Shown here: in pieces, positions 240 through 28,387 of the stretch | Layout: every line of letters begins with the position of its first letter | Position numbering within the stretch: the stretch's first letter is position 1 | Assembly (NCBI GenBank): GCA_013290125.1 | Contig: JABCYQ010000028.1 | Span: 1 to 36,614 of the forward strand | DNA length: 36,614 nucleotides | From: Vulcanimicrobiota bacterium | GTDB lineage: Bacteria; Vulcanimicrobiota; Vulcanimicrobiia; Eremiobacterales; Eremiobacteraceae | Direction: 5' to 3' | Position numbers and translations under genes: made by a program | Notes under the pieces: model-generated | Told to the model about the DNA's origin: nothing | Databases searched by the model: none | What the model saw: the letters and a program-made list of their open reading frames with translations, nothing else

Positions 240-1001
240 ATGCACGATCCGCGCGTCGCCGTACTCGTGTTTCCCGGAACGAATTCCGAAGAAGAGACGG
301 TCGACGCATGTCGCGACGCCGGGATGGATGCCGGGTTGTTCATGTGGAGCGAGGAGCCCGCCGCGCTGCGCGCGTACGACGCATATGTACTTCCCGGAGG
401 ATTTGCGCACGAAGACCGCGTGCGCGCCGGCGCGATCGCGGCGAAAAATCCGCTCGTCACCTTGATCGTCGAGGAGGCGCAGCGCGGGAAACTCGTGCTT
501 GGGCTTTGCAATGGCGCCCAGATACTCGCCGAAAGCGGGGTGCTCGGCGAAATCGCGATTGCTCGCAATCTGCCGGCTGGACATTTCCAATCGCGCACAG
601 TCGACGTGGTGGTCGGCGCCGCACCGGAGCGATGCGCGTTCACGCGCGGGCTGCAGCCAGGAACCATCGTGAAAATGGCGGCGGCGCACGGCGAGGGCCG
701 CTTTTGCGGCGACCCGTCCGTGTTCGAACGGCTCGAAGCGCGGGGGCAGATCGTCCTCACGTATGGCGGCGGAGCGTTTAATAAGTCTATGCACGCGGCT
801 GCAGGCGTGTGCAATGAGGCCGGCAACGTCCTTGCGTTGATGCCTCACCCGGAACGTCTGGCGTGGGCGTTCAATGTGGCGTATATGAGTTCGTCGGGCA
901 GAGGCGGCGACCCAAATCGAACCGCTGGCGCGCATGTCATCTTCCAGTGTATGGCGAACGCACTGCGCGGCACTCATACGGCGGGTATATCGCCCGTTTG
1001 A
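240..1001 (+). CDS. purQ: phosphoribosylformylglycinamidine synthase, PurQ glutaminase subunit
   Basis: A 253-residue class I glutamine amidotransferase that supplies ammonia to PurL. The N-terminus VAVLVFPGTNSEEET matches PurQ. The nucleophile is Cys90 in LGLCNGAQIL, and the His203/Glu205 pair sits in MPHPER. FNVAYMSSSGRGGD followed by a conserved tail is PurQ-like. The length fits the roughly 230-260 residues of the family. I chose the ATG at 240, one base after the purL stop, because the longer reading upstream lies inside purL and is out of character. It is translationally linked to purL. The next gene is an exported protein, so the purine order is interrupted here. Confidence 0.95.
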   Translation: MHDPRVAVLVFPGTNSEEETVDACRDAGMDAGLFMWSEEPAALRAYDAYVLPGGFAHEDRVRAGAIAAKNPLVTLIVEEAQRGKLVLGLCNGAQILAESGVLGEIAIARNLPAGHFQSRTVDVVVGAAPERCAFTRGLQPGTIVKMAAAHGEGRFCGDPSVFERLEARGQIVLTYGGGAFNKSMHAAAGVCNEAGNVLALMPHPERLAWAFNVAYMSSSGRGGDPNRTAGAHVIFQCMANALRGTHTAGISPV

Positions 1002-1029
1002 TGCCGACATTTTAGCGAGGGGAAGCGCG

Positions 1030-2169
1030 ATGATGAGAAAGCCTGCCGTAAGTATGCGATTCTGGATGGCGATATTGGCGGTTGTAGTCGGGATCTTCCG
1101 ACCAATGCCGGCTCTCGCGTGCGGCTGGGACGTGTTCGCGCCAAATGTCTCCGCAGGTTTCTACAGCGTAGAGTCGCTTTCGCCGACGAGCGTTTGGGTC
1201 GTCGGTGATCGCGTCGTTTCCAGCAACGTACACCGATCATTGGCCGAGCATTGGGACGGGACAATCTGGTCCATCATCCCAAGCAGTGACGAAGGCCAGA
1301 AAGACGGCTTCTTAGGCAGTACGGCTATCGCCGCGAACGATATTTGGGCTGTCGGCAATGCAAATCTTTTAGGCTCAGTTCGACCAATGATCGAACATTG
1401 GAACGGCAGTTCGTGGTCGATTGTCGGAAATCCGAGTTTTCCAAGGTACGCAACTCTTTCCGAAGTGAGTCACGTTTCCAGCAGCGATGTCTGGGCTGTC
1501 GGGTTTTATCAGGCGTCCGATCTCCACTACCGTCCGCTGGTCGAGCACTGGAACGGCAGTTCGTGGTCGATGGTGACGACGCCAGTTGTTCCAAACGTCG
1601 ATAACTACCTGATCGACGTTGCCGTCGAGAATCCAAATAGTGTTTGGGCCGTCGGCTACACGACCGACGCCAGCGGTCGCTTCCAAACGCTTACGCAGCA
1701 CTGGAACGGCAGCGCGTGGTCCATCGTTCCCAGCGCCAACGGTCCGTCCGATACTCTTCTCGACGGCGTCGCGGTGTCGTCGTCAAATAATGTCTGGGCA
1801 TTTGGTCAAGTCGTCGGGAGCGACGGCATTCTGCATACGCTTGCAGAACGTTGGAACGGCACCTCGTGGTCTATCTTCGCCACGCCGGACTTCAACAAGG
1901 TAGCAAATCTCTTGGCCTTTGGTTCGTCAACCGGCAATAATGACGTTTGGGCTGTGGGGGCTTACCTGACAAGCGACAATTTGTTCCATGCGCTCGTCGA
2001 ACACTTCAACGGCGTGAAATGGAGCATCGTGCCTAGTCCTCTTACGAACAGCACGATCAACTGGCGGATCGATGCCAAGGCCATCTCCTCGCGCGAGGCA
2101 TACGTCGTTGGATCCTTCACAGGCATCGATGGTATCATGCACCCGTTCGCCGAGCACTATCACTGCTGA
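1030..2169 (+). CDS. secreted seven-repeat beta-propeller protein
   Basis: This 379-residue protein has a signal peptide: a basic start, a hydrophobic core around residues 11-23, and a probable signal peptidase I site ALA before Cys31. The ATG at 1030 has AGGGGA about six bases upstream. The rest is seven copies of a unit of about 50 residues, with a V/IWAVG strand, then EHWNG, then SSWSIVPS. WNG-type turns occur six times and the last unit ends HYHC. Seven units fit a seven-bladed propeller. The only cysteines in the mature protein are its first residue (31) and its last (379), which suggests a disulfide closing the ring. DNA copies of the WNG stretch recur every 150 bases (1399-1421 and 1549-1571 are identical). 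GC is lower than in neighbours: one sampled line (1321-1380) is 50%, against 72% for 3481-3540 in purP. The function is unknown and it has no obvious purine role. It may be a later insertion into the operon. Confidence 0.8.
   Translation: MMRKPAVSMRFWMAILAVVVGIFRPMPALACGWDVFAPNVSAGFYSVESLSPTSVWVVGDRVVSSNVHRSLAEHWDGTIWSIIPSSDEGQKDGFLGSTAIAANDIWAVGNANLLGSVRPMIEHWNGSSWSIVGNPSFPRYATLSEVSHVSSSDVWAVGFYQASDLHYRPLVEHWNGSSWSMVTTPVVPNVDNYLIDVAVENPNSVWAVGYTTDASGRFQTLTQHWNGSAWSIVPSANGPSDTLLDGVAVSSSNNVWAFGQVVGSDGILHTLAERWNGTSWSIFATPDFNKVANLLAFGSSTGNNDVWAVGAYLTSDNLFHALVEHFNGVKWSIVPSPLTNSTINWRIDAKAISSREAYVVGSFTGIDGIMHPFAEHYHC
1399..1571 (+). repeat. 150-base periodic repeat within the propeller gene
   Basis: The 23 bases at 1399-1421 and at 1549-1571 are identical (starting TGGAACGGCAGTTCG). 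A third, diverged copy starts near 1699. They encode the WNGSSWS turn of successive propeller blades, so they reflect recent blade duplication and not a mobile repeat. Confidence 0.85.
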
Positions 2170-2181
2170 TACGCAGCGCAC

Positions 2182-2706
2182 ATGATTTTTGAAGCCGCGA
2201 TCGATCTAACAATTCCCGACAATACCGCCTACTCGGTCCGGGTCGCGCTTGCTCAGCTCGGATACGCTGGATTGGAACGGGTCGAACGCACCGAAGTCTT
2301 CCGGTTGTCGATCGTCGACGAGCAGACTCGCGCGGAAGATATAGCGCGCGCGCTGACTCGCGCCGAGGTCCTGTTCAACCCGAATAAACATCGCCTGTCG
2401 TACGCGGTCGATGATGCGTCGAGCTTCACGATCGTCGGCGAATGGGAAGCGATCGTGGCCGACCGCGATAGCGATACGAAAAGGTTGCAACGCGTGCTAT
2501 GCGAGCGCTTTGGAATTCGCGGGCTCGAGCGTCTCGATCGATCGATCGCGTGGCGGCTCTACGAAGCCGGGTGCCCGGCGTCGAAGGACAAGTTAGAGTG
2601 GGCATGCCGCGCGCTGCTCTGCAATCCGTATTCCCAGTCGTCGACCGTGCGCATGCGGCCGAATCGGACGCCGGTGGGTGATGGAGCGGTTGCTGTTGAA
2701 ACGTAG
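2182..2706 (+). CDS. tandem (fused) PurS-like subunit of FGAM synthase
   Basis: The protein has 174 residues and no exact family that I can name with certainty. Two halves resemble each other and PurS, which is normally about 80 residues. In half 1 (3-75) LGYAGLERVERTEVFRL precedes a helix ending in VLFNPNKHRLS. In half 2 (82-160) FGIRGLERLDRSIAWRL precedes CRALLCNPYSQSS. The paired pattern G..GLER..R....RL and the terminal L-x-NP motif correspond to PurS's strand and its 'LLANP' helix end. PurS is known to act as a dimer bridging PurL and PurQ, so a fused pair would supply both protomers in one chain (inference). It sits in the purL-purQ-purP run, 3 bases before purP, and no separate purS is visible. 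The tail after residue 160 looks disordered. Naming it PurS-like is moderately secure; activity is unproven. Confidence 0.65.
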   Translation: MIFEAAIDLTIPDNTAYSVRVALAQLGYAGLERVERTEVFRLSIVDEQTRAEDIARALTRAEVLFNPNKHRLSYAVDDASSFTIVGEWEAIVADRDSDTKRLQRVLCERFGIRGLERLDRSIAWRLYEAGCPASKDKLEWACRALLCNPYSQSSTVRMRPNRTPVGDGAVAVET

Positions 2707-2709
2707 GCC

Positions 2710-3831
2710 ATGAGACGCAAATCCGCGCCAACGCCTCACATCCCGCAGCTGTTCACCATCGCAACGCTCGGCAGCCATTCGGCGCTGCAGATCCTAAAAG
2801 GCGCTAAGGACGAGGGTTTTCACACCCTAGCGGTCGTCACGCCGCAAAACGAGCGGCTCTACGCCAGCTTCAATTTCGTCGACGAAGTCATCGTCATCCC
2901 CACGTATAGCGATTTTCCGAAGCTCGAATCAGAACTCAACAAGCGCAAGGTGATCCTCGTGCCCCACGGTTCATTTGTGGCCTATCTCTCGATGGACGAG
3001 CACAAGGCCATGACGACGCCGTATTTCGGGAACAAGGCGGTGCTCGATTGGGAAGCCGACCGGCTTCGTCAACGCGAGTGGCTGCTGCGCGCCGGCTTGC
3101 GGATGCCGCGCCAATTCACGAAGGCCGCAGAGATCGACCGGCCGGTCATCGTCAAGCTGTACGGCGCGCTTGGCGGCAAAGGCTACCTGTTCGTGAAGAA
3201 CACCGAAGATTTCCAGCAGCGCGCGACGCACCTCGTCGAACAGCAATTCATCATGCAGGAGTACATCATCGGCGTTCCGGTGTACATCCATTATTTCTAT
3301 TCGCCGCTCACCGGCAAACTCGAGATCATGTCCATGGATCGCCGCTACGAGTCGAACGTCGACTCGCTCGGCCGCATCCCATCTGCCGATCAAGAAGGTT
3401 GGGATATCCATCCTTCGTACGTCGTCATCGGCAACCAGCCGATCTCGCTGCGCGAGTCGCTGCTGGCAGAAGCCTTCCACATGGGCGAAGCGGTCGTGCG
3501 CGTGAGCCGCGAGATCTGTCCGGACCGCGGCCTCTTCGGCGCGTTCTGCCTCGAGACGATCGTGACGCCTGAAGCAGAGTTCTTCCTGATGGAGATCTCC
3601 GCGCGTATCGTCGCCGGCACGAATCTCTTCATCGACGGTTCGCCGTACTCGTACCTCAACTATGATGAACCGATGTCCACCGGCCGCCGCATCGCGCGCG
3701 AGATCAAAAACGCGCTCTTCAGCGAGAGTCTCGACCTCGTCCTCGATCAGTCCGGCCGGATGACCTTCGACTTGCCCACGCTCGACAACCCCGCCGTCGC
3801 GATCCCCGGTCCGGGCGTGCGCGCGAATTGA
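2710..3831 (+). CDS. purP: formate-dependent AICAR formyltransferase (PurP family)
   Basis: A 373-residue ATP-grasp enzyme. The family, best known from archaea, makes FAICAR from AICAR, formate and ATP without folate. Motifs in order: TLGSHSALQILKGAKDEGF (19-37, substrate-binding N-domain), VPHGSF (84-89), PYFGNK (104-109), VIVKLYGALGGKGYLF (146-161, ATP-grasp lysine and glycine loop), QEYIIGVPVYIHYFYS (183-198), DRRYESNVDSLGRIPSADQ (210-228), LRES (247-250), FGAFCLE (276-282) and MEISARIVAGTN (294-305). All key regions look intact, so it is probably active. The ATG is 3 bases after the PurS-like stop. It would replace the formyltransferase half of PurH. The cyclisation enzyme is not in this window. 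The family assignment is strong; the symbol is by homology. Confidence 0.88.
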   Translation: MRRKSAPTPHIPQLFTIATLGSHSALQILKGAKDEGFHTLAVVTPQNERLYASFNFVDEVIVIPTYSDFPKLESELNKRKVILVPHGSFVAYLSMDEHKAMTTPYFGNKAVLDWEADRLRQREWLLRAGLRMPRQFTKAAEIDRPVIVKLYGALGGKGYLFVKNTEDFQQRATHLVEQQFIMQEYIIGVPVYIHYFYSPLTGKLEIMSMDRRYESNVDSLGRIPSADQEGWDIHPSYVVIGNQPISLRESLLAEAFHMGEAVVRVSREICPDRGLFGAFCLETIVTPEAEFFLMEISARIVAGTNLFIDGSPYSYLNYDEPMSTGRRIAREIKNALFSESLDLVLDQSGRMTFDLPTLDNPAVAIPGPGVRAN

Positions 3832-4961
3832 CTCAAGTCGGTCACGCCGCGCTCGCGGGCTATGACCGATCGCGGCTGACCATCTCATGCGTCGGTTCGC
3901 ATTCCGCCCTGGACGTCTGTCTTGGAGCGCGCCGCGAAGGTCTGCGCAACCTCGTCGTCGCCGCGCGCGGCCGCGAGAAGACCTACACGAACTATTTCGG
4001 CGCGCGAGCGGATGGTTCGGGTTGCGTGGACGAGACGCTGCTCGTCGATCATTTCGCCGACATCATCAAACCCGAGGTGCAACGAGAGCTGCTTTCCCGC
4101 AACGCGATATTCGTGCCGAACCGCTCATTTGAAGTGTACGCGCGACAGAAACATGCCTACGCCGAGATCGAGCGGCTCTTCACCGCGCCGATGTTCGGCT
4201 CGCGCAAGTTGCTGCGCGCCGAAGAGCGCGACGAGCCCGCCAATCAATATGCGCTGCTGCAGAGCGCCGGCATCCGCTTTCCGCGGCGCTTCGCAACGGC
4301 CGACGAGATCGACGGTCTCGCGCTCGTCAAAGCAGCACACGCGAAAGTGTCGTTCGAGCGCGCGTTCTTTCTCGTCTCAAGCCCCGCGCATTTCCGGCGC
4401 CGCAGCGAAGAACTTGTAGCAGCCGGCGTAGTCGACGGCAAGGGTCTCGCGACGGCGGTGATCGAGGAATACGTGCTGGGCCCGACGATCAATCTGAACT
4501 TCTTCTGGTCGCCGATTTTGGGTGAGCTTGAACTACTAGGCACGGACACGCGGCGACAGACGAATATCGACGGAGTACGCAGCCTGCTTGCGGCGGATCA
4601 GGCATCGCTCGCGGCGTCATTCGCGCCGTCGATGGAAGAAGCAGGCCACATCGCCGCGACATTGACCGAATCGATGCTGGAGCAGGCGTTTGATATGGGC
4701 GATCGCTTCGTTCGCGCCGCGCGTGAAGCAGAACCGCCCGGCATCATAGGGCCGTTCGCGCTCCAGTGCGTGATCACGTCTGGCCCGCCGAAATCGTTCG
4801 TCGTCTACGACGTGAGCTTGCGCATTCCGGGATCGCCAGGTACGAAATTCACGCCGTATTCCGGCTACCGCTGGGGACGAGAGATCTCGGTCGGCGAGCG
4901 CATCGCGCGCGAGATCGTATTGGCAAGAGATTCAGGCCGGCTTGAGGACGTCTGCACATGA
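3828..4961 (+). CDS. PurP paralogue with degenerate ATP-grasp loop
   Basis: A 377-residue PurP-family protein that begins at a TTG overlapping the purP stop (TTGA), with no in-frame ATG or GTG nearby. It keeps SCVGSHSALDVCLGARREGL (20-39), MFGSRKLLRAE (122-132), EEYVLGPTINLNFFWSP and DTRRQTNIDG. Elsewhere it departs from the purP next door. PHGS becomes PNRS (97-100), and the glycine-rich loop after Lys168 reads AAHAKVSFERAFF in place of YGALGGKGYLF. The GPFCLE equivalent reads GPFALQ. A second, diverged PurP copy also occurs in several archaea. Here it may be a non-catalytic partner of PurP or an enzyme for a different acid or amine (inference). Coupling to purP suggests that the two products act together. 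Confidence 0.8.
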   Translation: MTQVGHAALAGYDRSRLTISCVGSHSALDVCLGARREGLRNLVVAARGREKTYTNYFGARADGSGCVDETLLVDHFADIIKPEVQRELLSRNAIFVPNRSFEVYARQKHAYAEIERLFTAPMFGSRKLLRAEERDEPANQYALLQSAGIRFPRRFATADEIDGLALVKAAHAKVSFERAFFLVSSPAHFRRRSEELVAAGVVDGKGLATAVIEEYVLGPTINLNFFWSPILGELELLGTDTRRQTNIDGVRSLLAADQASLAASFAPSMEEAGHIAATLTESMLEQAFDMGDRFVRAAREAEPPGIIGPFALQCVITSGPPKSFVVYDVSLRIPGSPGTKFTPYSGYRWGREISVGERIAREIVLARDSGRLEDVCT

Positions 4962-4983
4962 CAAGAAAGGCGAGGGCGTGCGT

Positions 4984-6273
4984 ATGCAAACCGTAGAGCT
5001 GACGGTCGCCGACAAATACCGGCACTACGTCAATACGTACTTCCTGAAGAAGGTCCAACCGATCATCATCGACCGCGCGGAGGGCGCGACCGTTTGGGAT
5101 GAGAGTGGTCGCGCGTATGTGGACTTGTTCTCAGGGATATCCGTCGTCAACGCCGGCCACAACCGGCCTGAAGTCATCGACGCCGCAATCGCGCAGATGC
5201 GCAAACTCGTCCACTGCAACTCCTACATCTACCATAACAAACCAACCGCCGATTTCGCGGAAGCGCTCGCCTCGATCATGCCGAGCCAAGATCTGCGCGT
5301 CTCATTTTTCGGCTCGAGCGGCGCTGAAGCGATCGAAGGCGCAATGCGAATCGCCAAACAATACACGAAGCGCACGGAGTTCGTCGCGCTGGAGATGTCG
5401 TTTCACGGGCGAACCGCAGCCACGCTCAGCGTGACCGGGAATTGGAACCGCAAGAAAGGCGGCGGGCCCTACATGCCCGGCGTGGCCTTTGCTCCTGCGC
5501 CGTTCGCGTATCGCAGCGAGCATGGCGCCGACCCAGAGCGGCTTGCGCGGGAATCCGCAAACGCGATCGAACGCGTCATCGACACACAGACGTCGGGCGC
5601 GGTTGCTGCGTTCATCGCGGAGCCGGTCATGGGCGAGGGCGGCATCATCGTTCCTCCACCCAACTATTTCAAGTACGTCAAAGAGATACTCGATCGCCGC
5701 GGCATCTTGTTCATCGCGGACGAAGTGCAGAGCGGATTCGGCCGCACGGGCAAGATGCTTGCCATCGAACATTACGGCGTCGTGCCGGACATCGTCGTCA
5801 CGGCCAAAGGCATCGCCGACGGATTTCCGCTCTCGGCGTTCACCACGCGCGAAGAGATCGCCAAGGCGTTCACGCCCGGCGACCATCTGTCGACGTTCGG
5901 CGGCAATCCGGTCGCGTGCGCGGCGGCTCTTGCAAATCTAGAAGTCCATCGCCGGGAACGGCTCTCCGATGGAGCGGCAGAGAAGGGCGCGCGCGCGATG
6001 ACCGCGCTCCACACGCTCGCCGCCAAGCACAACAGCATCGGCGACGTGCGCGGCGCAGGATTGATGATCGGCATCGAGCTCGTCACCGATAAGAAGACAA
6101 AAACGCCGGATGCAGCGCTTGCGACAAGGATCCAGGACCAGATGCTCGCGGACGGCTTCTTGATCGGGCTTGGTGGATACCATGGGAACGTGCTGCGCCT
6201 GCAGCCGCCGCTCGTCATCTCCGATGAAGATCTCGACCGCGGCGTTCGCGCCATCGACGCGGCACTTGCGTAA
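4984..6273 (+). CDS. class III PLP-dependent aminotransferase
   Basis: The protein has 429 residues and the fold type I, class III signature: FGSSGAEAIEGAMRIAKQYT, SFHGRTAATLSVTG, a PLP-contacting IADEVQSGFGRTGK, the Schiff-base Lys275 in VTAKGIADGFPLSAF, and STFGGNPVACAAA. It is closest by eye to 4-aminobutyrate/AGXT2-like omega-aminotransferases; ornithine-type specificity is also possible. I chose the ATG at 4984 because AAAGGCGAGG lies just upstream. A TTG at 4942 would give 14 extra residues overlapping the PurP paralogue and has no ribosome site. It lies 22 bases after that gene and 36 before guaA. Why an aminotransferase sits among purine genes is unclear; the substrate cannot be read from sequence. 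Confidence 0.88.
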   Translation: MQTVELTVADKYRHYVNTYFLKKVQPIIIDRAEGATVWDESGRAYVDLFSGISVVNAGHNRPEVIDAAIAQMRKLVHCNSYIYHNKPTADFAEALASIMPSQDLRVSFFGSSGAEAIEGAMRIAKQYTKRTEFVALEMSFHGRTAATLSVTGNWNRKKGGGPYMPGVAFAPAPFAYRSEHGADPERLARESANAIERVIDTQTSGAVAAFIAEPVMGEGGIIVPPPNYFKYVKEILDRRGILFIADEVQSGFGRTGKMLAIEHYGVVPDIVVTAKGIADGFPLSAFTTREEIAKAFTPGDHLSTFGGNPVACAAALANLEVHRRERLSDGAAEKGARAMTALHTLAAKHNSIGDVRGAGLMIGIELVTDKKTKTPDAALATRIQDQMLADGFLIGLGGYHGNVLRLQPPLVISDEDLDRGVRAIDAALA

Positions 6274-6309
6274 AAAGGCGCTGCTGCGCCATCGCAGGAA
6301 TTGAGCGAC

Positions 6310-7887
6310 ATGCAGCAAGCCACGCGGGAGGCGACACCGGCGGCGGTCGGCGCGGAGACCGTCATCATCCTCGACTTCGGCGCGCAGTACGCGCAGCTCA
6401 TCGCACGGCGGGTGCGTGAAGCCCACGTCTACTCCGAGATCCTTCCTTTTGACACGCCGTGGGCGGAGATCGAGACGCGCAAACCGGGCGCTTTCATTTT
6501 GACGGGCGGCCCCGAATCGTGCATAGCACCGGGCGCGCCGCATCTCCCGAAAGAGATCCTTGAGAGCGGCAAGCCGATCCTCGGCATCTGTTACGGCATG
6601 CAGGAGCTCGCACGCATTTGCGGCGGTCGCGTTTCGCCCGGTACGACAAGCGAGTACGGTAAGGCCGACCTGAAAGTCAAGGCGGCGGATTCACAGCTGT
6701 TCGACGGCGTGAGCGATCTGACACAGGCATGGATGAGCCACACCGATACGGTGACTGAACTGCCGGCCGGATTCGTGCCGTTGGCTTCGACTGCGCACTG
6801 CGCTCTCGCCGCTGTGGGCGATCCCGAGCGCAGGATCTACGGCGTGCAATTCCATCCCGAGGTGATGCATACGACGGCCGGCCGCGTCGTGTTGGACAAT
6901 TTTCTGCGCCGCATCGCCGGCTTGCGAGATCGCTGGGAGATGTCGTCGTTCGCAACGCGAGCCATCGCAGAGATCCGCCAACAGGTCGGCGATGCACGAG
7001 TGATCTGCGCGCTTTCAGGCGGCGTCGACAGCGCAGTCGCCGCCACGCTGGTCTCTCGCGCGATCGGCGATCGCCTCACGTGCATCTTCGTCGATCACGG
7101 ACTGCTGCGCGAGCGCGAGGCGGAAGAAGTCGTCGAGGCGTTTCGCGACGTTATGCATCTCGACGTGATCGCCGTCGACGCGCGCACGCGATTCTTGGAG
7201 GCGCTGTCCGGCGTCAGCGATCCCGAGGAGAAGCGCAAGATCATCGGTCGCGAGTTCATCGCCGTGTTCGAAGAGCGCGCTAGGGCGATTCCCGGCGTCG
7301 AATTCCTCGTCCAAGGCACGCTTTATCCCGACGTCATCGAGAGCAAGACGGCCGGAAGCAAGAGCGGCGCGAAGATCAAGACGCACCACAATGTGGGCGG
7401 TCTGCCCGACCGCATGGCGCTGCGTCTGGTTGAGCCGCTGCGGTTGCTCTTCAAAGATGAGGTCCGCGCGCTCGGCCGAGAACTGGGACTGCCGGAGACG
7501 ATCGTCGGCCGTCAGCCGTTTCCCGGTCCTGGTCTTGCCGTTCGAGTATTGGGTGCGATCACCGAAGAGCGGCTGACGGTGCTGCGGCGCGCGGACGCGA
7601 TCGCGCGCGAGGAGATCCAACGGGGCGCGTCGCCCGAACCGTGGCAGTACTTCGCCGTGCTGACGCCGATCCAGAGCGTCGGCGTCATGGGCGACGGCCG
7701 CACGTACGCGGATCTCATCGCGATCCGCGCCGTGACCAGCGACGACGGCATGACCGCCGATTGGGCTCGGCTACCCTACGAGGTCTTGCAAAAGATCTCC
7801 ACGCGGATCGTCAACGAGGTTCCCGGCGTGAACCGCGTGGTCTACGACATCACGTCGAAGCCGCCAGCGACGATCGAGTGGGAATGA
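6310..7887 (+). CDS. guaA: GMP synthase (glutamine-hydrolysing)
   Basis: GuaA of 525 residues aminates XMP to GMP with glutamine and ATP. The glutaminase domain comes first, with Cys94 in GICYGMQEL and the His/Glu pair in QFHPEV. The ATP pyrophosphatase domain follows, with the PP-loop [15 protein letters not shown], then [11 protein letters not shown], and the dimerisation domain ending [16 protein letters not shown], the canonical GuaA C-terminus. The ATG at 6310 has AGGA ten bases upstream. A TTG at 6301 is also in frame but lies too close to that site. The stop overlaps the start of the diguanylate cyclase gene (ATGA), so the two are translationally coupled. Confidence 0.97.
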
Positions 7888-9110
7888 TAGATCTCGCCGC
7901 GCTCGCGGCGCCGATCGCCGACACACGCTTCCAAGACTTATTCCGGCTTACGAGCATCATCTCGCTCGTGTTCCAGATCAGCGCAACGGCGCTGATCGCG
8001 CTCGTGTCGTTCATCGTGTCGCGAGCGGTCAGGCGCGGGCTTTTCCCCTACTGGGCGAGCGGCTGGGCATGTTATACGTGCTCGCTCGTGTCCATACTAT
8101 TGGCCAACCGCATTCCGGCGATCGCGCCGCCTCTGTTCTTTGGCTATTTCTTCTTCGAATACGCCGCCGTCGTGTTCATCTTCGCCGCCTGCCGCCATAC
8201 AGCCGGCGCGGATCTGCCCGCCAAGCGCGTCTGGCTCGCGCTCATCCCGGCCGCCATCGTCGCGATCGTCCTTCTGGCGCTGCCGACGGTGTTTCTCTGG
8301 CGCTATACGATTCACAACGGCATTTTCGGCCTTGCTTGGGCTGCATGTCTCGTAGCGCTCTGGCCGGCACTTCGCGATCGCGCGAGCGGACCGGGCGTGC
8401 GCCTCACGGCTGTCGGTCTCGCGCTGCTTTCGCTCGACTATCTGCAACATTGCGCCTCGAACTGGTATCTCTCGGCGCAGCACGTCGCGTTGAGTCCCTA
8501 CTATTATACGGTGACGTCCCTAGTGGACGGGATGTTCGAGCTCATGCTCGGCTTCGGCAGTGTCGTCGTTATCGTGGACAGGGTGCGCGCCGAGTTGGCC
8601 GAGGCGAACGAAGGCCTGCGCGTTGCGCACGATCGTACCGCGACGGCTCTGCTTCGCGATGCGTTGACCGGGGCCCTGAGCCGTTACTCATTCGAACACG
8701 AACATCGCGAAGGCGGGATAAGCGACCGGCGCGGCACGATCGTCGTGGTCGATCTCGATGGCCTCAAGCAGATCAACGATTCACTGGGTCATGCGACCGG
8801 CGATGCCGCGATTCGGGCGGTCGCGCAGGGCCTCTCCGATCTCGTGCGTGGCGAAGACAAGGTCTATCGGCTCGGCGGCGATGAGTTCGTCGTCGTGATG
8901 CCGGGCATGCCGCTCGAATTGGCGCGCAGTCGAATGCAGCGACTCGACGACGCCATCAACGCGCGCATGGAATCTGGATCCGCCTGGCTCACCGTCAGTC
9001 ATGGTCTTTCAGATTTCACCGGCGAGGATATGGAAAGCGCGCTGACGGCCGCCGACGCCGCGATGTACGCCGAGAAGAGCACTCGCAAAGCAGCGCAGGA
9101 GCGCGCGTGA
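7884..9110 (+). CDS. membrane-bound diguanylate cyclase (GGDEF)
   Basis: A 408-residue protein with about seven hydrophobic segments (roughly 22-46, 56-74, 83-103, 116-138, 146-163, 174-188, 205-232), a short linker helix (about 232-255) and a GGDEF domain (about 258-405). The active-site motif RLGGDEF (GGDEF at 331-335) is intact, as is [16 protein letters not shown] at 322-325 is exactly five residues before GGDEF, which is the position of the product-inhibition I-site. It should make c-di-GMP from two GTP at the inner membrane. The input is not identifiable, as the membrane part matches no sensor that I recognise. It overlaps guaA by four bases (ATGA) and purD by four (GTGA), so it is expressed with purine enzymes. 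Confidence 0.93.
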
Positions 9111-10384
9111 AAGTGCTCGTCGTCGGCTCCGGCGCGCGCGAGCATGCTCTGGCGTGGAAGCTTGCGCAATCGCCGCTCGTTGAGTCTGTGTGCGCCGCAC
9201 CAGGTAATGCCGGCACCGCATCGCATGGCGAGAACTGGACCGGCGTCGCCGTCACTGCGTCGCCCACGCTCGTCGAGCGGTCGGCCGCCGAAAAGATCGG
9301 TCTTGCGGTGATCGGCCCCGAGGCGGCTCTGGCGGCGGGCGTCTCGGATGCGTTGCGCGCTGCCGGCATCCCGACTTTTGGACCGGGGCGCGCCGGCGCG
9401 AGACTCGAGTCGAGCAAGGCGTACGCCAAACAGTTCATGGCGAGAAACGGCATTCCTACCAGCCGCTTCCGCATCGCGCATGACGCGAAGCAAGCCCTCA
9501 AGCATTTGAACGAGTGGGAGTGGGGAGGCGTCGTCGTCAAAGCCGATGGTTTGGCGTCGGGCAAAGGCGTCGTCGTATGCGACACGTCAGAAGAGGCCGC
9601 TGCTCTGGTCGAAGGGTGGTATCGCGATCATCGCGTGCCCGGCGGCGGCGCCACGATCGTGTTGGAAGAGCGGTTGTCCGGTCCCGAGGCGTCGGTCATG
9701 GTCGTGACAGATGGAGAGACAGCGCACATGCTGGCGCCCGCGTGCGATTACAAGCGCGCCGGCGATGCGGATTCCGGACCGAACACGGGCGGCATGGGCG
9801 GGTATTCGCCCGCCTCGGACGTCTTAGACGAGCAGGCGCTCGCGCGCATCAGGCGCGAGGTGATCGACCCGGCGCTCGACGGCATGCGGCGCGACGGCAT
9901 CGAATACCGCGGCTGCCTCTACGCGGGTCTCATGATGACCGAGCGCGGCCCGATGGTGCTCGAATTCAACGCTCGCTTCGGCGATCCGGAAACGCAAGTC
10001 GTGCTTCCGCGGCTCGAGACCGATCTCGCTGAATTGCTGCTCGCCGCAGCGACCGGAACGCTTGCGCAAACCAAGCCGCCGACATTTTCAAAAAGCGCTT
10101 GCGTGGGCGTCGTGCTCACGAGTGTCGGTTACCCTGGAACGTCGGCGCCTCTTGTCGGCCTGCCGGATGTCGAAACCTCGGCATTCTGGGGGACATCCAC
10201 GCGGCGCGGCTCGGTCGTGGATTCTGTCGGCGGCCGCGTGTTGACCGTCACGGCGCTCGGTGAAAGCGTAGCCGACGCGCGCATCGCTGCCTATGAAGCC
10301 TGCTCGGCATATGTCGGCAAGCTGCCAGCGGGTGTGACGCTCGCTTTCCGCAGGGATATAGCGGCACGAGTGAAGCTCGAATGA
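9107..10384 (+). CDS. purD: phosphoribosylamine-glycine ligase
   Basis: GAR synthetase of 425 residues (purine step 2) joins phosphoribosylamine and glycine with ATP. The N-domain starts VLVVGSGAREHALAWKL. The ATP-grasp part has VVVKADGLASGKGVVV, LSGPEASVMVVTDG, DADSGPNTGGMGGYSP and VLEFNARFGDPETQVVLPRL, and the C-terminal segment is the usual purD tail. All motifs look intact and the length is typical. It starts at a GTG that overlaps the cyclase stop (GTGA), and its stop overlaps the next start (ATGA), so it is locked into the same translational unit. Confidence 0.97.
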   Translation: MKVLVVGSGAREHALAWKLAQSPLVESVCAAPGNAGTASHGENWTGVAVTASPTLVERSAAEKIGLAVIGPEAALAAGVSDALRAAGIPTFGPGRAGARLESSKAYAKQFMARNGIPTSRFRIAHDAKQALKHLNEWEWGGVVVKADGLASGKGVVVCDTSEEAAALVEGWYRDHRVPGGGATIVLEERLSGPEASVMVVTDGETAHMLAPACDYKRAGDADSGPNTGGMGGYSPASDVLDEQALARIRREVIDPALDGMRRDGIEYRGCLYAGLMMTERGPMVLEFNARFGDPETQVVLPRLETDLAELLLAAATGTLAQTKPPTFSKSACVGVVLTSVGYPGTSAPLVGLPDVETSAFWGTSTRRGSVVDSVGGRVLTVTALGESVADARIAAYEACSAYVGKLPAGVTLAFRRDIAARVKLE

Positions 10385-10963: not shown

Positions 10964-12427
10964 ATGGATGCCGCGCTGCCGCAAGACTGGAACGGGTACC
11001 TACCTAAGCCGCAGGGCAGCGAGGACGCGCTGCACGATGCCTGCGGAGTCTGCGGCATATTCGCTCCCGGACAGGACGTGGCGCGCGCCACGTTTTTCGC
11101 GCTCTACGCGCTCCAACATCGCGGACAGGAAAGCGCCGGAATGGCGGTTTCGGACGGTGCGACACTGCGGTGCCACAAGGAGATGGGCCTCATCTCGCAG
11201 GTGTTCGACGAAGAACATTTGAGCGCGCTTCCCGGCCATCTCTCGGTCGGCCACACCCGTTATTCCACAAGCGGTTCGTCCGTGGTCTACAACGCGCAGC
11301 CGCTGCTGACGCACTGTGATCTGGGCTGGTTCGCTCTTGCGCACAACGGCAATCTCGTCAACACCGCGGCGTTGCGCGACGGCCTCCACGACACCACAGT
11401 GCCCACGAGCAATTCAGACACCGACATCATGGCGCGCTATATCGCCTCGGAACCCGACGGCGACATGGAAGAGCGCATCGTGCGCACCATGCAGCGCAGC
11501 ATCGGCGCGTTCTCGATCGTGCTCTGCACCGAGACGCAGCTCTTCGGATTCCGCGATCCGTGGGGCATACGCCCGCTTTGCTTAGGAAGGTATGCAGGCG
11601 GTTGGATGCTCGCTTCGGAGTCGTGTGCGCTTTCAACGGTCGGCGCGGAGTTCGTGCGTGAGGTAGAGCCGGGCGAAATCGTGGTGATCGACAGCGGCGG
11701 GCTGCGCAGCCGCATGGTCCCCACCGAACACAAGCGCGCCAATTGCATCTTCGAATACATCTATTTCTCGCGTCCGGATACTGTATACGCTGGTCGCGAA
11801 CTGTATCTCGCACGCTATCGCATGGGTCGCGAACTCGCCAAAGAGCATGCCGTCGAAGCAGACGTCGTGATGGGCGTGCCGGATAGCGCCACTGCCGCCG
11901 CGATCGGTTACTCCGATGAGTCGGGCTTGCCGTACATCGAGGGCCTGATGAAGAACCGGTACATCGGGCGCACGTTCATCCAGCCGGACCAGCAGATCCG
12001 CGCACAAGGCGTTAAACTGAAATTCAATCCGCTGCTTGCTAATCTCAACGGGCGCCGCGTGGTACTTGTGGATGATTCGATCGTGCGCGGCACCACCACG
12101 CGCCAACTCGTCGCGCTGTTACGGCGGTCGGGTGCGAAAGAAGTGCACGTGCGAATCACGAGCCCGCCGATGCGCCATCCCTGTTTCTTGGGCGTGGACA
12201 CTGCCACGTACGACCAGCTCATCGCTGCGAACATGACCGTGCCGCAGATCCGCGAGACGATCGGCGCCGATTCGTTAGGCTATCTCAGCCTCGATGGCTT
12301 GATCGCGGCCACGGAGCGCGATCGCCATGAGATGTGCACCGGCTGTTTCACGGGTAAATATCCGCAGGGCATCGACGAAGAATTAACGGACCTCGTCCGC
12401 CGCCCGACGGCAGAAGCCGCGCTCTAA
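10964..12427 (+). CDS. purF: amidophosphoribosyltransferase
   Basis: PurF of 487 residues makes phosphoribosylamine from PRPP and glutamine, the committed purine step. It is the Bacillus-like Fe-S form with a propeptide. Cleavage before Cys27 (HDACGVCGIF) would expose the N-terminal nucleophile. The glutaminase motifs QHRGQESAG and GHTRYSTSG are present, as is the PRPP loop VVLVDDSIVRGTT (366-378). Four cysteines fit the 4Fe-4S ligands: 261 (ANCIFEY), 407 (RHPCF), 458 and 461 (MCTGC). The ATG at 10964 is preceded by its own promoter and lacks a Shine-Dalgarno, pointing to leaderless translation. It is separated from the upstream run by 88 bases, so it can be controlled independently. Confidence 0.97.
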   Translation: MDAALPQDWNGYLPKPQGSEDALHDACGVCGIFAPGQDVARATFFALYALQHRGQESAGMAVSDGATLRCHKEMGLISQVFDEEHLSALPGHLSVGHTRYSTSGSSVVYNAQPLLTHCDLGWFALAHNGNLVNTAALRDGLHDTTVPTSNSDTDIMARYIASEPDGDMEERIVRTMQRSIGAFSIVLCTETQLFGFRDPWGIRPLCLGRYAGGWMLASESCALSTVGAEFVREVEPGEIVVIDSGGLRSRMVPTEHKRANCIFEYIYFSRPDTVYAGRELYLARYRMGRELAKEHAVEADVVMGVPDSATAAAIGYSDESGLPYIEGLMKNRYIGRTFIQPDQQIRAQGVKLKFNPLLANLNGRRVVLVDDSIVRGTTTRQLVALLRRSGAKEVHVRITSPPMRHPCFLGVDTATYDQLIAANMTVPQIRETIGADSLGYLSLDGLIAATERDRHEMCTGCFTGKYPQGIDEELTDLVRRPTAEAAL

Positions 12428-26663: not shown

Positions 26664-27719
26664 ATGACCGACCGCTACGCCGCAGCAGGCGTGAACATCA
26701 CCGCCGGAAACGAGGCGGTGGCGCGCTATCGCGAGATCGCGGCGCGCGGCCGAGATCCGCGCATCCTCGACGGTATCGGCGGATTCGGCGGCTGCTTCGA
26801 TTTCCGCGGCTATCGCGATCCGGTGCTCGTCGCAAGCACTGACGGCGTCGGCACGAAAGTGCTCGTCGCGGCAGCGCTCCACCGCTACGACACGGTCGGC
26901 CAAGACCTCGTCAATCATTGCGTGAACGATATCCTCTGCGTCAACGCGCAGCCACTGTTCTTCCTCGACTATTACGCCGTCGGCAGGCTCGACCCGGATG
27001 TCGCGGCGCAAGTCGTCGGCGGCGTCGCTAAGGCGTGCAAGGAGAATGGCGCGGCGTTGCTCGGCGGCGAAACAGCCGAGATGCCGGGCGTCTACGCTGA
27101 GACGCACTTCGATATCGCCGGAACGATCGTGGGTGCGGTAGAACGCGATAAGCTCGCGGATCCGTCGACCGTCATCGCGGGCGACGCCATCATCGCGTTG
27201 CCCGCGAACGGTCTGCACACGAATGGCTACTCGCTGGCGCGCAGCGTCCTCCAACCCGAACGCTGGCGTGAACGAATGATAGGCTCGGAGCAGACGATCG
27301 GCGACGCACTGCTCGCTGTGCATCCGAGCTATCTTCGATATGTTCGCGCGGTGCAAGACGCGGGTGTGATCATCAAAGCGATGGCGCACATCACGGGCGG
27401 CGGGTTGATTGAAAACATGCCGCGCATCCTGCCCGAACATCTCGCGGCGCGCTTCGATCGCTCCGCCTGGTCCGTCCCCGCCATCGCAGCGCTGATCGCG
27501 CGCTCTGCCGGACTTTCAGTAGAAGAGGCGCACCGCACGTTGAATATGGGCGTCGGATTCTGCATCGTCGTTTCGGCCGCCGACAAAAACGCTGCGCTCG
27601 CCGCGGCGCGCGGCGCGCTGAGCGAACACCCGGTCACTGATGCGTCCGGCGCCACGGCTTCAGTCGTTGGCGAAGTCGAACCCCGCCACGCCTGCGGACC
27701 GGCGGTCATCATCGCGTGA
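26664..27719 (+). CDS. purM: phosphoribosylformylglycinamidine cyclo-ligase
   Basis: AIR synthetase of 351 residues (purine step 5) closes the imidazole ring using ATP. Motifs: YAAAGVNITAGNEAV at the start, GGFGGCFDF, STDGVGTKVLVAAAL, VNHCVNDILCVNAQPLFFLDYYAVG across 88-112, LLGGETAEMPGVY, NGLHTNGYSLAR, THITGGG-type AHITGGGLIENMPRILP, and NMGVGFCIVV. All are conserved and the length is standard. Its stop overlaps the purN start (GTGA). It lies 17 kb from the other purine genes, behind the lemA operon. Confidence 0.96.
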   Translation: MTDRYAAAGVNITAGNEAVARYREIAARGRDPRILDGIGGFGGCFDFRGYRDPVLVASTDGVGTKVLVAAALHRYDTVGQDLVNHCVNDILCVNAQPLFFLDYYAVGRLDPDVAAQVVGGVAKACKENGAALLGGETAEMPGVYAETHFDIAGTIVGAVERDKLADPSTVIAGDAIIALPANGLHTNGYSLARSVLQPERWRERMIGSEQTIGDALLAVHPSYLRYVRAVQDAGVIIKAMAHITGGGLIENMPRILPEHLAARFDRSAWSVPAIAALIARSAGLSVEEAHRTLNMGVGFCIVVSAADKNAALAAARGALSEHPVTDASGATASVVGEVEPRHACGPAVIIA

Positions 27720-28387
27720 ACCAGACGTCCGCCGCCGCCACCACCCGCGATCGGCGAGTCCCGACCGCGGTGTTCGTCTCCGGCGCCGGCACCAATCTGC
27801 AACACGTGATCGATCTCGCGGCTGCGGGTGCGTTGCCCCTCGATGTTCGGCTGGTCGTCTCAAACGCGCGCGAAGCATTTGCGGTTGAGCGCGCCTCGCA
27901 GGCCAGCATCCCCGTTCTCATCGCGCCGTTCGATCGGCATGCCGAATCGCGAGCGGAATACGGCGCGCGTCTGGCCGCCGACGTGCGCGGGCGCGGCATC
28001 GAGCTCGTGCTGCTCCTCGGCTGGATGCACGTGCTTGACGCATCGTTCGTCAATGCGGGTTTTGCGGGCATCCTCAACCTGCATCCGGCGTTTCTTCCCG
28101 ACGATCCCCAGGCAGACGACGTCATGCTCCCCGATGGAAGCGTGTCTCCCGTTTTTCGCGGCGCCCATGCGCTCCGCGATGCCCTCTCGTACGGCGCGCC
28201 GTCAACGGGCGCGAGCCTGATCCAGATCACGGCCGAGGTCGACCGGGGGCCGGTGCTTGCCCGCCGCGTGTGTGCGCTACTCGCGGGGGATGACGAAAAA
28301 AAAGCGCTCGAGCGTCTGCATGACGTCGAGCGCGAGGTGATCGCCGAAGGCGTCAGCACATGGCTGACGGCGGCTGCCTACTTGTAG
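27716..28387 (+). CDS. purN: phosphoribosylglycinamide formyltransferase, folate-dependent
   Basis: GAR transformylase of 223 residues (step 3, 10-formyl-THF). The N-terminal FVSGAGTNLQHVID, catalytic Asn121 and His123 in GILNLHPAFLP, and Asp176 in VDRGPVL are present. Two deviations stand out. Roughly 18 extra residues (about 129-146) follow the HPAFLP loop. In addition, the histidine of the usual GTSVHF segment is Ile169 (GASLIQIT). A GTG start overlaps the purM stop. The gene converges with the lipoprotein gene on the other strand, and their ends overlap by 10 bases. Confidence 0.92.
   Translation: MNQTSAAATTRDRRVPTAVFVSGAGTNLQHVIDLAAAGALPLDVRLVVSNAREAFAVERASQASIPVLIAPFDRHAESRAEYGARLAADVRGRGIELVLLLGWMHVLDASFVNAGFAGILNLHPAFLPDDPQADDVMLPDGSVSPVFRGAHALRDALSYGAPSTGASLIQITAEVDRGPVLARRVCALLAGDDEKKALERLHDVEREVIAEGVSTWLTAAAYL

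Follow-up and report, generated by a model that had tools for sequence, protein, structure and literature searches.

An archaeal-type PurP gene pair in the purine operon of the bacterial class Eremiobacteria (Vulcanimicrobiia)

PurP proteins, which include the formate-dependent AICAR ligases (FAICAR synthetases), are called exclusively archaeal in a 2014 survey (PMC4177761). Brown et al. (2011; PMC3261824) divided the archaeal proteins into clusters, of which Ia and Ib have a (K/R)GG(K/R)G loop and Asn258, and cluster II has a loop two residues longer, with the glycines lost and His at position 258. Wherever a species has a cluster Ib protein, it has exactly one of cluster II; the two genes are often within purine gene clusters, are sometimes adjacent (in Sulfolobales and Pyrobaculum), and in Methanosarcinales are found beside PurH (PMC3261824). 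The FAICAR synthetase MJ0136 of Methanocaldococcus jannaschii (cluster Ia; PDB 2r7k-2r7n) acts alone, in an organism that has no PurH. The Pyrococcus furiosus proteins PF1517 (cluster Ib; PDB 2r84-2r87) and PF0421 (cluster II) are reported, as cited in PMC3261824, to be without AICAR formyltransferase activity, and the host of PF1517 is described as having no known IMP cyclohydrolase. Brown et al. also noted a partial match in archaea between paired purP genes and a missing cyclohydrolase, and speculated that the cluster II type could fill this role in archaea without PurO and PurH (PMC3261824).

We describe here a pair of this kind in a bacterium. The window, a 36,614-nucleotide stretch of DNA from a Vulcanimicrobiota bacterium (assembly GCA_013290125.1, contig JABCYQ010000028.1), contains two consecutive purP-like genes, A and B, among genes of purine biosynthesis (Table 1). 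Both products are full length, with the Pfam domains DUF1246 and DUF1297 in order and far above the gathering cut-offs (140 and 220 bits in A, 123 and 194 bits in B), and in sequence searches their relatives of solved structure are archaeal PurPs only (E <= 0.001). The closest to A is PF1517 (340 bits, ~51% identity) and the closest to B is MJ0136 (221 bits), to which the A and B sequences of the class are ~42% and ~35% identical, respectively. The named loci nearest to B are in MAGs of Eremiobacterota (63-73% identity), the phylum of this organism, which NCBI lists as Vulcanimicrobiota. Chance is excluded by the domain scores and the class-wide recurrence described below. The first-pass annotation, which reported a PurP pair of archaeal type within the purine operon of a bacterium, is borne out on this point. 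Both proteins miss the NCBIfam equivalog cut-offs for formate--AICAR ligase (PRK13278; best scores 391 vs 590 for A and 259 vs 556 for B), and neither is therefore filed as a proven FAICAR synthetase.

Table 1. Features of the purP locus and other purine genes in the window
Feature	Position	Strand	Remarks
purQ (FGAM synthase glutaminase subunit)	243..1001	+	Contig edge; start approximate
Beta-propeller-like protein	1026..2169		Between purQ and purS
PurS-like protein	2182..2706	+	174 aa; Pfam PurS match at residues 13-74
ORF A, PurP-like, cluster Ib type	2710..3831	+	373 aa, ATG start; candidate formate-dependent AICAR ligase (FAICAR synthetase)
TTGA overlap	3828..3831	+	A stop (TGA) / B start (TTG)
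ORF B, PurP-like, cluster II type	3828..4961	+	377 aa, TTG start; candidate partner subunit
Class III aminotransferase	4942..6273		
guaA (GMP synthase)	6301..7887	+	Conserved downstream neighbour of B
GGDEF diguanylate cyclase	7641..9110		
purD	9107..10384	+	
purF	10964..12427	+	
purM	26664..27719	+	
purN-like (folate-dependent GAR formyltransferase)	27716..28387	+	125 bits vs NCBIfam PurN cut-off of 150

The active sites of the two proteins (M. jannaschii numbering) have the features of the two archaeal clusters. In A, the loop is GALGGKGY, with an intact GGKG preceded by Leu where the archaeal motif begins with Lys or Arg, and His27, Ser94, Asn258, Ser266 and Arg314 are present; all of the AICAR, formate and loop residues tested are shared with MJ0136, in agreement with the original description of one copy with a canonical active site. 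B keeps His27, Ser94, Ser266 and Arg314, which are reported contacts to the formyl group and the AICAR phosphate, has His in place of Asn258, and has the loop HAKVSFERAFF, two residues longer than that of A and without the GG. The glycine loop of B had been called destroyed; the glycines are indeed gone, but this is the cluster II signature, found class-wide, and not decay. All 59 A sequences of the class have the GG pair at 162-163, Asn258, His27 and Arg314, with the residue at the first position of the archaeal motif being variable. The GG pair is present in none of the 48 B sequences, all of which have His258 and Arg314, and 47 have His27 (one row is gapped); the loop is longer by two in the B rows shown. 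Ser94 and Ser266 are kept in A and B sequences alike. B has an invariant set of residues of its own, including Arg93, Arg124, Arg164, Glu199, Asn208, His258, Gln297 and Asp310, which favours selection over decay, and the occurrence of the same signature across the class and the archaea rules out that B decayed in this genome alone. As judged from these sequences, A is a member of cluster Ib and B of cluster II; the combination itself is already known from archaea, and it is the bacterial home that is new.

MJ0136 has a two-domain ATP-grasp fold, which is shared here, and the predicted model of B (pLDDT 84.5) has the whole PurP fold and matches MJ0136 over its full length (TM 0.82-0.87 to 2r7l). 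The AlphaFold model of A is poor (pLDDT 47) because the nine sequences in its input alignment are near-identical, and the fold of A rests on its sequence similarity to 2r84. Since B keeps the AICAR and formate residues with a remodelled nucleotide loop, it would most likely be a non-catalytic or regulatory subunit that A needs, and the earlier suggestion that it is a partner of A is plausible. It is distinctly improbable, we think, that B would instead serve chiefly to sense AICAR (ZMP), as a pseudo-ligase that binds this nucleotide and adjusts the activity of A, which alone would be catalytic. The kept AICAR-phosphate contacts and the replaced ATP loop would suit such a role, as would the changes E297 to Q and E310 to D at likely metal positions (a role inferred from ATP-grasp enzymes generally), but the active enzyme MJ0136 also has Q297, so that this residue alone does not show lost catalysis.

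The gene order purQ-purS-A-(insert)-B-guaA-purD-purF recurs class-wide (for the few loci of family f2 the stretch compared covers purQ-purS-A-B only). A and B lie between the PurS-like gene, which adjoins A in nearly all of the class loci examined, and a class III aminotransferase gene with guaA, followed by purD and purF. This order (purQ-purS-purP-purP-guaA-purD-purF), in a bacterial class, distinguishes the pair from its archaeal counterparts. The TTGA overlap would be expected to couple translation of A and B, as was originally proposed. The overlap is present, but tight coupling is typical of only a few families, among them that of the window. In relatives within this family the junction is overlapping or nearly so and the start codon varies (TTGA in several, TGATG in others), and in f2 too the genes touch or overlap. 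In most of family f3, and in most of the class, they are ~1-10 kb apart. Strict coupling is therefore not needed. In these f3 loci, a gene for a helical-looking secreted protein lies between A and B, in some cases with genes resembling those of cytochrome bd, labels that we read from the translations.

Profile searches of 149 genomes of the phylum, 117 of them in the window's class, identified DUF1297 in 112 genomes, including 111 of the 117 in class Eremiobacteria (Vulcanimicrobiia), nearly always in two copies. Vulcanimicrobium alpinum WC8-2, a cultured member of the class, has a closed genome (G118; a single contig of 3,508,363 bp) with PurH and both PurP genes, each with DUF1246 and DUF1297, which removes the worry of contamination for the class. 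That the pair is a functionless relic or a misassembled archaeal contaminant has very little probability and is already largely refuted by the closed isolate genome, the class-wide presence, the bacterial operon and the invariant active-site residues; what speaks for it is the redundancy of PurH with the pair and the single copy in G146, which may be a stray archaeal contig. G146 is the only genome beyond the class with DUF1297, and its cluster I PurP (contig C110, L166 6935-8092) groups with Thermoplasmatota, is beside a HisB-like gene, and is possibly from an archaeal contaminant. The pair in the class is real and well conserved, and places a combination known from archaea in a new, bacterial group of hosts; a literature search found no paper that ties Eremiobacterota to purP. 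That a class of soil bacteria has the full Ib and II pair at the core of its purine operon changes the known distribution of PurP.

A tree of both genes, a check that the first-pass annotation had suggested, places B with archaeal cluster II and A with PF1517. Its archaea are Thermoplasmatota and two solved archaeal proteins, and it is without Crenarchaeota or Methanosarcina sequences. The A and B sequences of the class each form one clade with full support. The B clade (100/100) is nested inside archaeal B and joins a subset of Thermoplasmatota (100/97); a single clade of Thermoplasmatota B is rejected (p-AU 0.0038). The A clade groups with PF1517 (97/91), its sister in this sampling. With this sampling, archaea to bacteria is the likely direction of transfer for B, and A and B may have come from different donors. 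Within the class, A diverges no faster than GuaA and B about as fast (mean distances among genomes of 0.26 for A, 0.39 for GuaA and 0.42 for B), and the distances of A and B correlate with those of GuaA and PurQ (0.84-0.88), the pattern that vertical inheritance following the gain would give. The A-B correlation (0.83) is no higher than among the operon genes generally (all 0.83-0.88) in this mirror-tree comparison, and so gives no sign of special A-B contact.

The genome from which the window comes also encodes a complete two-domain PurH of 520 aa, with MGS and AICARFT domains (contig C8, L003 1300-2862, minus strand), adjoining an smc-like gene. It keeps Lys66, Tyr104, Asp125 and Lys137 and the RY, KH, N, D and R motif positions, covering both halves of the enzyme, and the four named cyclohydrolase residues are conserved in nearly all of the PurH sequences sampled from the class. 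PurH is present in 109 of the 117 class genomes, 103 of which have both PurP and PurH, and no genome lacks both. PurO (PF07826) is absent from this genome and from all 149 phylum genomes, in searches whose positive controls gave matches. The first-pass annotation had counted a complete purH, in combination with a PurP that does not formylate AICAR, against its own proposal. The searches for purH and purO that it recommended return a complete purH, the first of these two conditions, and no purO. It had proposed a hybrid pathway with folate at step 3 and free formate at step 9. The PurN on which the first part depended is there, though below the NCBIfam cut-off; its gene adjoins purM, ~14 kb past purF and ~23 kb from the A/B pair. 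The second part does not hold as stated: since PurH is complete with its key residues, the hybrid pathway is possible and not required, and the PurP pair, not demonstrated as the sole route, is at most an alternative one. Some class genomes (e.g. G055, G079 and G081, 84-93% complete) have the pair and no PurH match, and were considered as cases of PurH replacement; they are fragmented, congeners of G055 and G081 have PurH, and assembly gaps are the simpler reading.

Formate-THF ligase is missing in 114 of the 117 class genomes and over the cut-off in 19 of the other 32 in the phylum, and PurT is absent from all 149, which leaves the PurP pair as the one recognised route by which free formate would enter purine synthesis. 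The near-absence of formate-THF ligase and the presence of PurP in the class are correlated over what may be a single event. The archaeal pairs differ in this setting, as organisms of this class have folate-dependent PurN and PurH, mostly without formate-THF ligase and all without PurT. If active, the pair would provide folate-independent formate use in place of formate-THF ligase and PurT.

We propose that an ancestor of the class gained an archaeal Ib and II pair, which was built into the purine operon, and that A, probably together with B as one enzyme, would convert AICAR, formate and ATP to FAICAR (step 9). This route would be parallel to the folate-dependent half of PurH, an enzyme of unrelated fold, encoded elsewhere, that is predicted to carry out the same formylation with 10-formyl-THF rather than formate and ATP, and whose other half would close the ring of FAICAR to give IMP. 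We put the probability of this explanation as a whole at about one half (0.5). The occurrence of one cluster II protein in each species with a Ib protein fits a two-subunit enzyme, and joint action of A and B would account for the inactivity reported for PF1517 and PF0421. Counting against the proposal are that same inactivity, the missed equivalog cut-offs, the coverage of step 9 by PurH, and the separation of A and B in many genomes. A more tentative version, which we regard as possible but doubtful, is that most of step 9 would be done by a formate-AICAR ligase in which both subunits are obligate. PurH would then be retained mainly to close the ring, and purines would draw on free formate because the class has given up formate-THF ligase. 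If the heteromer reading is true, the same rule would explain why single archaeal Ib and II proteins were reported inactive. The bacterial pair also makes the archaeal question of the role of cluster II and of this inactivity testable in V. alpinum, a mesophile in culture, and with purine mutants of E. coli.

Several of these points apply equally to a different function, in which the pair would be an ATP-grasp ligase whose substrate is AICAR or a similar nucleotide but whose product or acyl donor is a different one, so that it would not be the enzyme of step 9. PurH already covers that step, the equivalog cut-offs are missed, and both P. furiosus proteins are reported to be inactive. We consider this unlikely, as A keeps every formate and AICAR contact residue tested, the genes lie among IMP-pathway genes class-wide, and crystals of PF1517 with AMP and AICAR exist (2r84, entry title).

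Among 116 Thermoplasmatota genomes, 93 have PurP and 109 have PurH; none lacks both, and all seven without PurH have PurP. Three of the genomes (G160, G171 and G179; loci L139, L140 and L141) have adjacent cluster II and Ib purP genes and no PurH match, and in G160 the pair belongs to a series of genes that also includes AIRS-domain (purM- and purL-like), purE and purF-like members; there it may replace PurH, for the formylation step at least. The pattern agrees with a role of the pair in AICAR formylation; the cases are few and statistically weak, and some of the genomes may be incomplete. The same three genomes also favour the possibility, raised for archaea by Brown et al. (PMC3261824), that B, or the pair, would serve as IMP cyclohydrolase, with FAICAR bound in the old AICAR site and the ring closed without ATP. 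The retained AICAR-phosphate and formyl contacts of B, its lack of a canonical ATP loop, its constant His258, and the partial match in archaea of paired purP with a missing cyclohydrolase are in keeping with this. In the class, however, the pair occurs alongside a PurH that keeps its cyclohydrolase residues, so that no cyclohydrolase is missing, and most Thermoplasmatota likewise have PurH beside PurP; we therefore regard a cyclohydrolase as improbable and favour formylation of AICAR by the pair, in parallel with PurH. The question of the missing archaeal IMP cyclohydrolase could well be studied in G160, G171 and G179.

There are several further features of the purine genes in these genomes. 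In other classes of the phylum, some genomes that are 97-98% complete (e.g. G001, G003, G005 and G011) have no match to PurH, PurP or PurO, and these may be purine auxotrophs or have unknown last-step enzymes. In the PurH of this genome and in 24 of 31 PurH sequences sampled, KHTVPCG takes the place of the usual KHxNPCG next to the catalytic Lys-His in the AICAR formyltransferase half, a class-specific change that might affect folate use by PurH. Within the operon, the aminotransferase gene and the GGDEF diguanylate cyclase gene have matches at the same position in another genome of the genus (G018, L116). The protein encoded between purQ and purS matches no Pfam family over the cut-off, and has a signal-like start and repeated WAVG/EHWNG motifs suggestive of a beta-propeller. 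The neighbouring PurS-like protein has no PDB match in our search, is about twice the normal length of PurS with a second half that is PurS-like by eye, and may be a tandem PurS.
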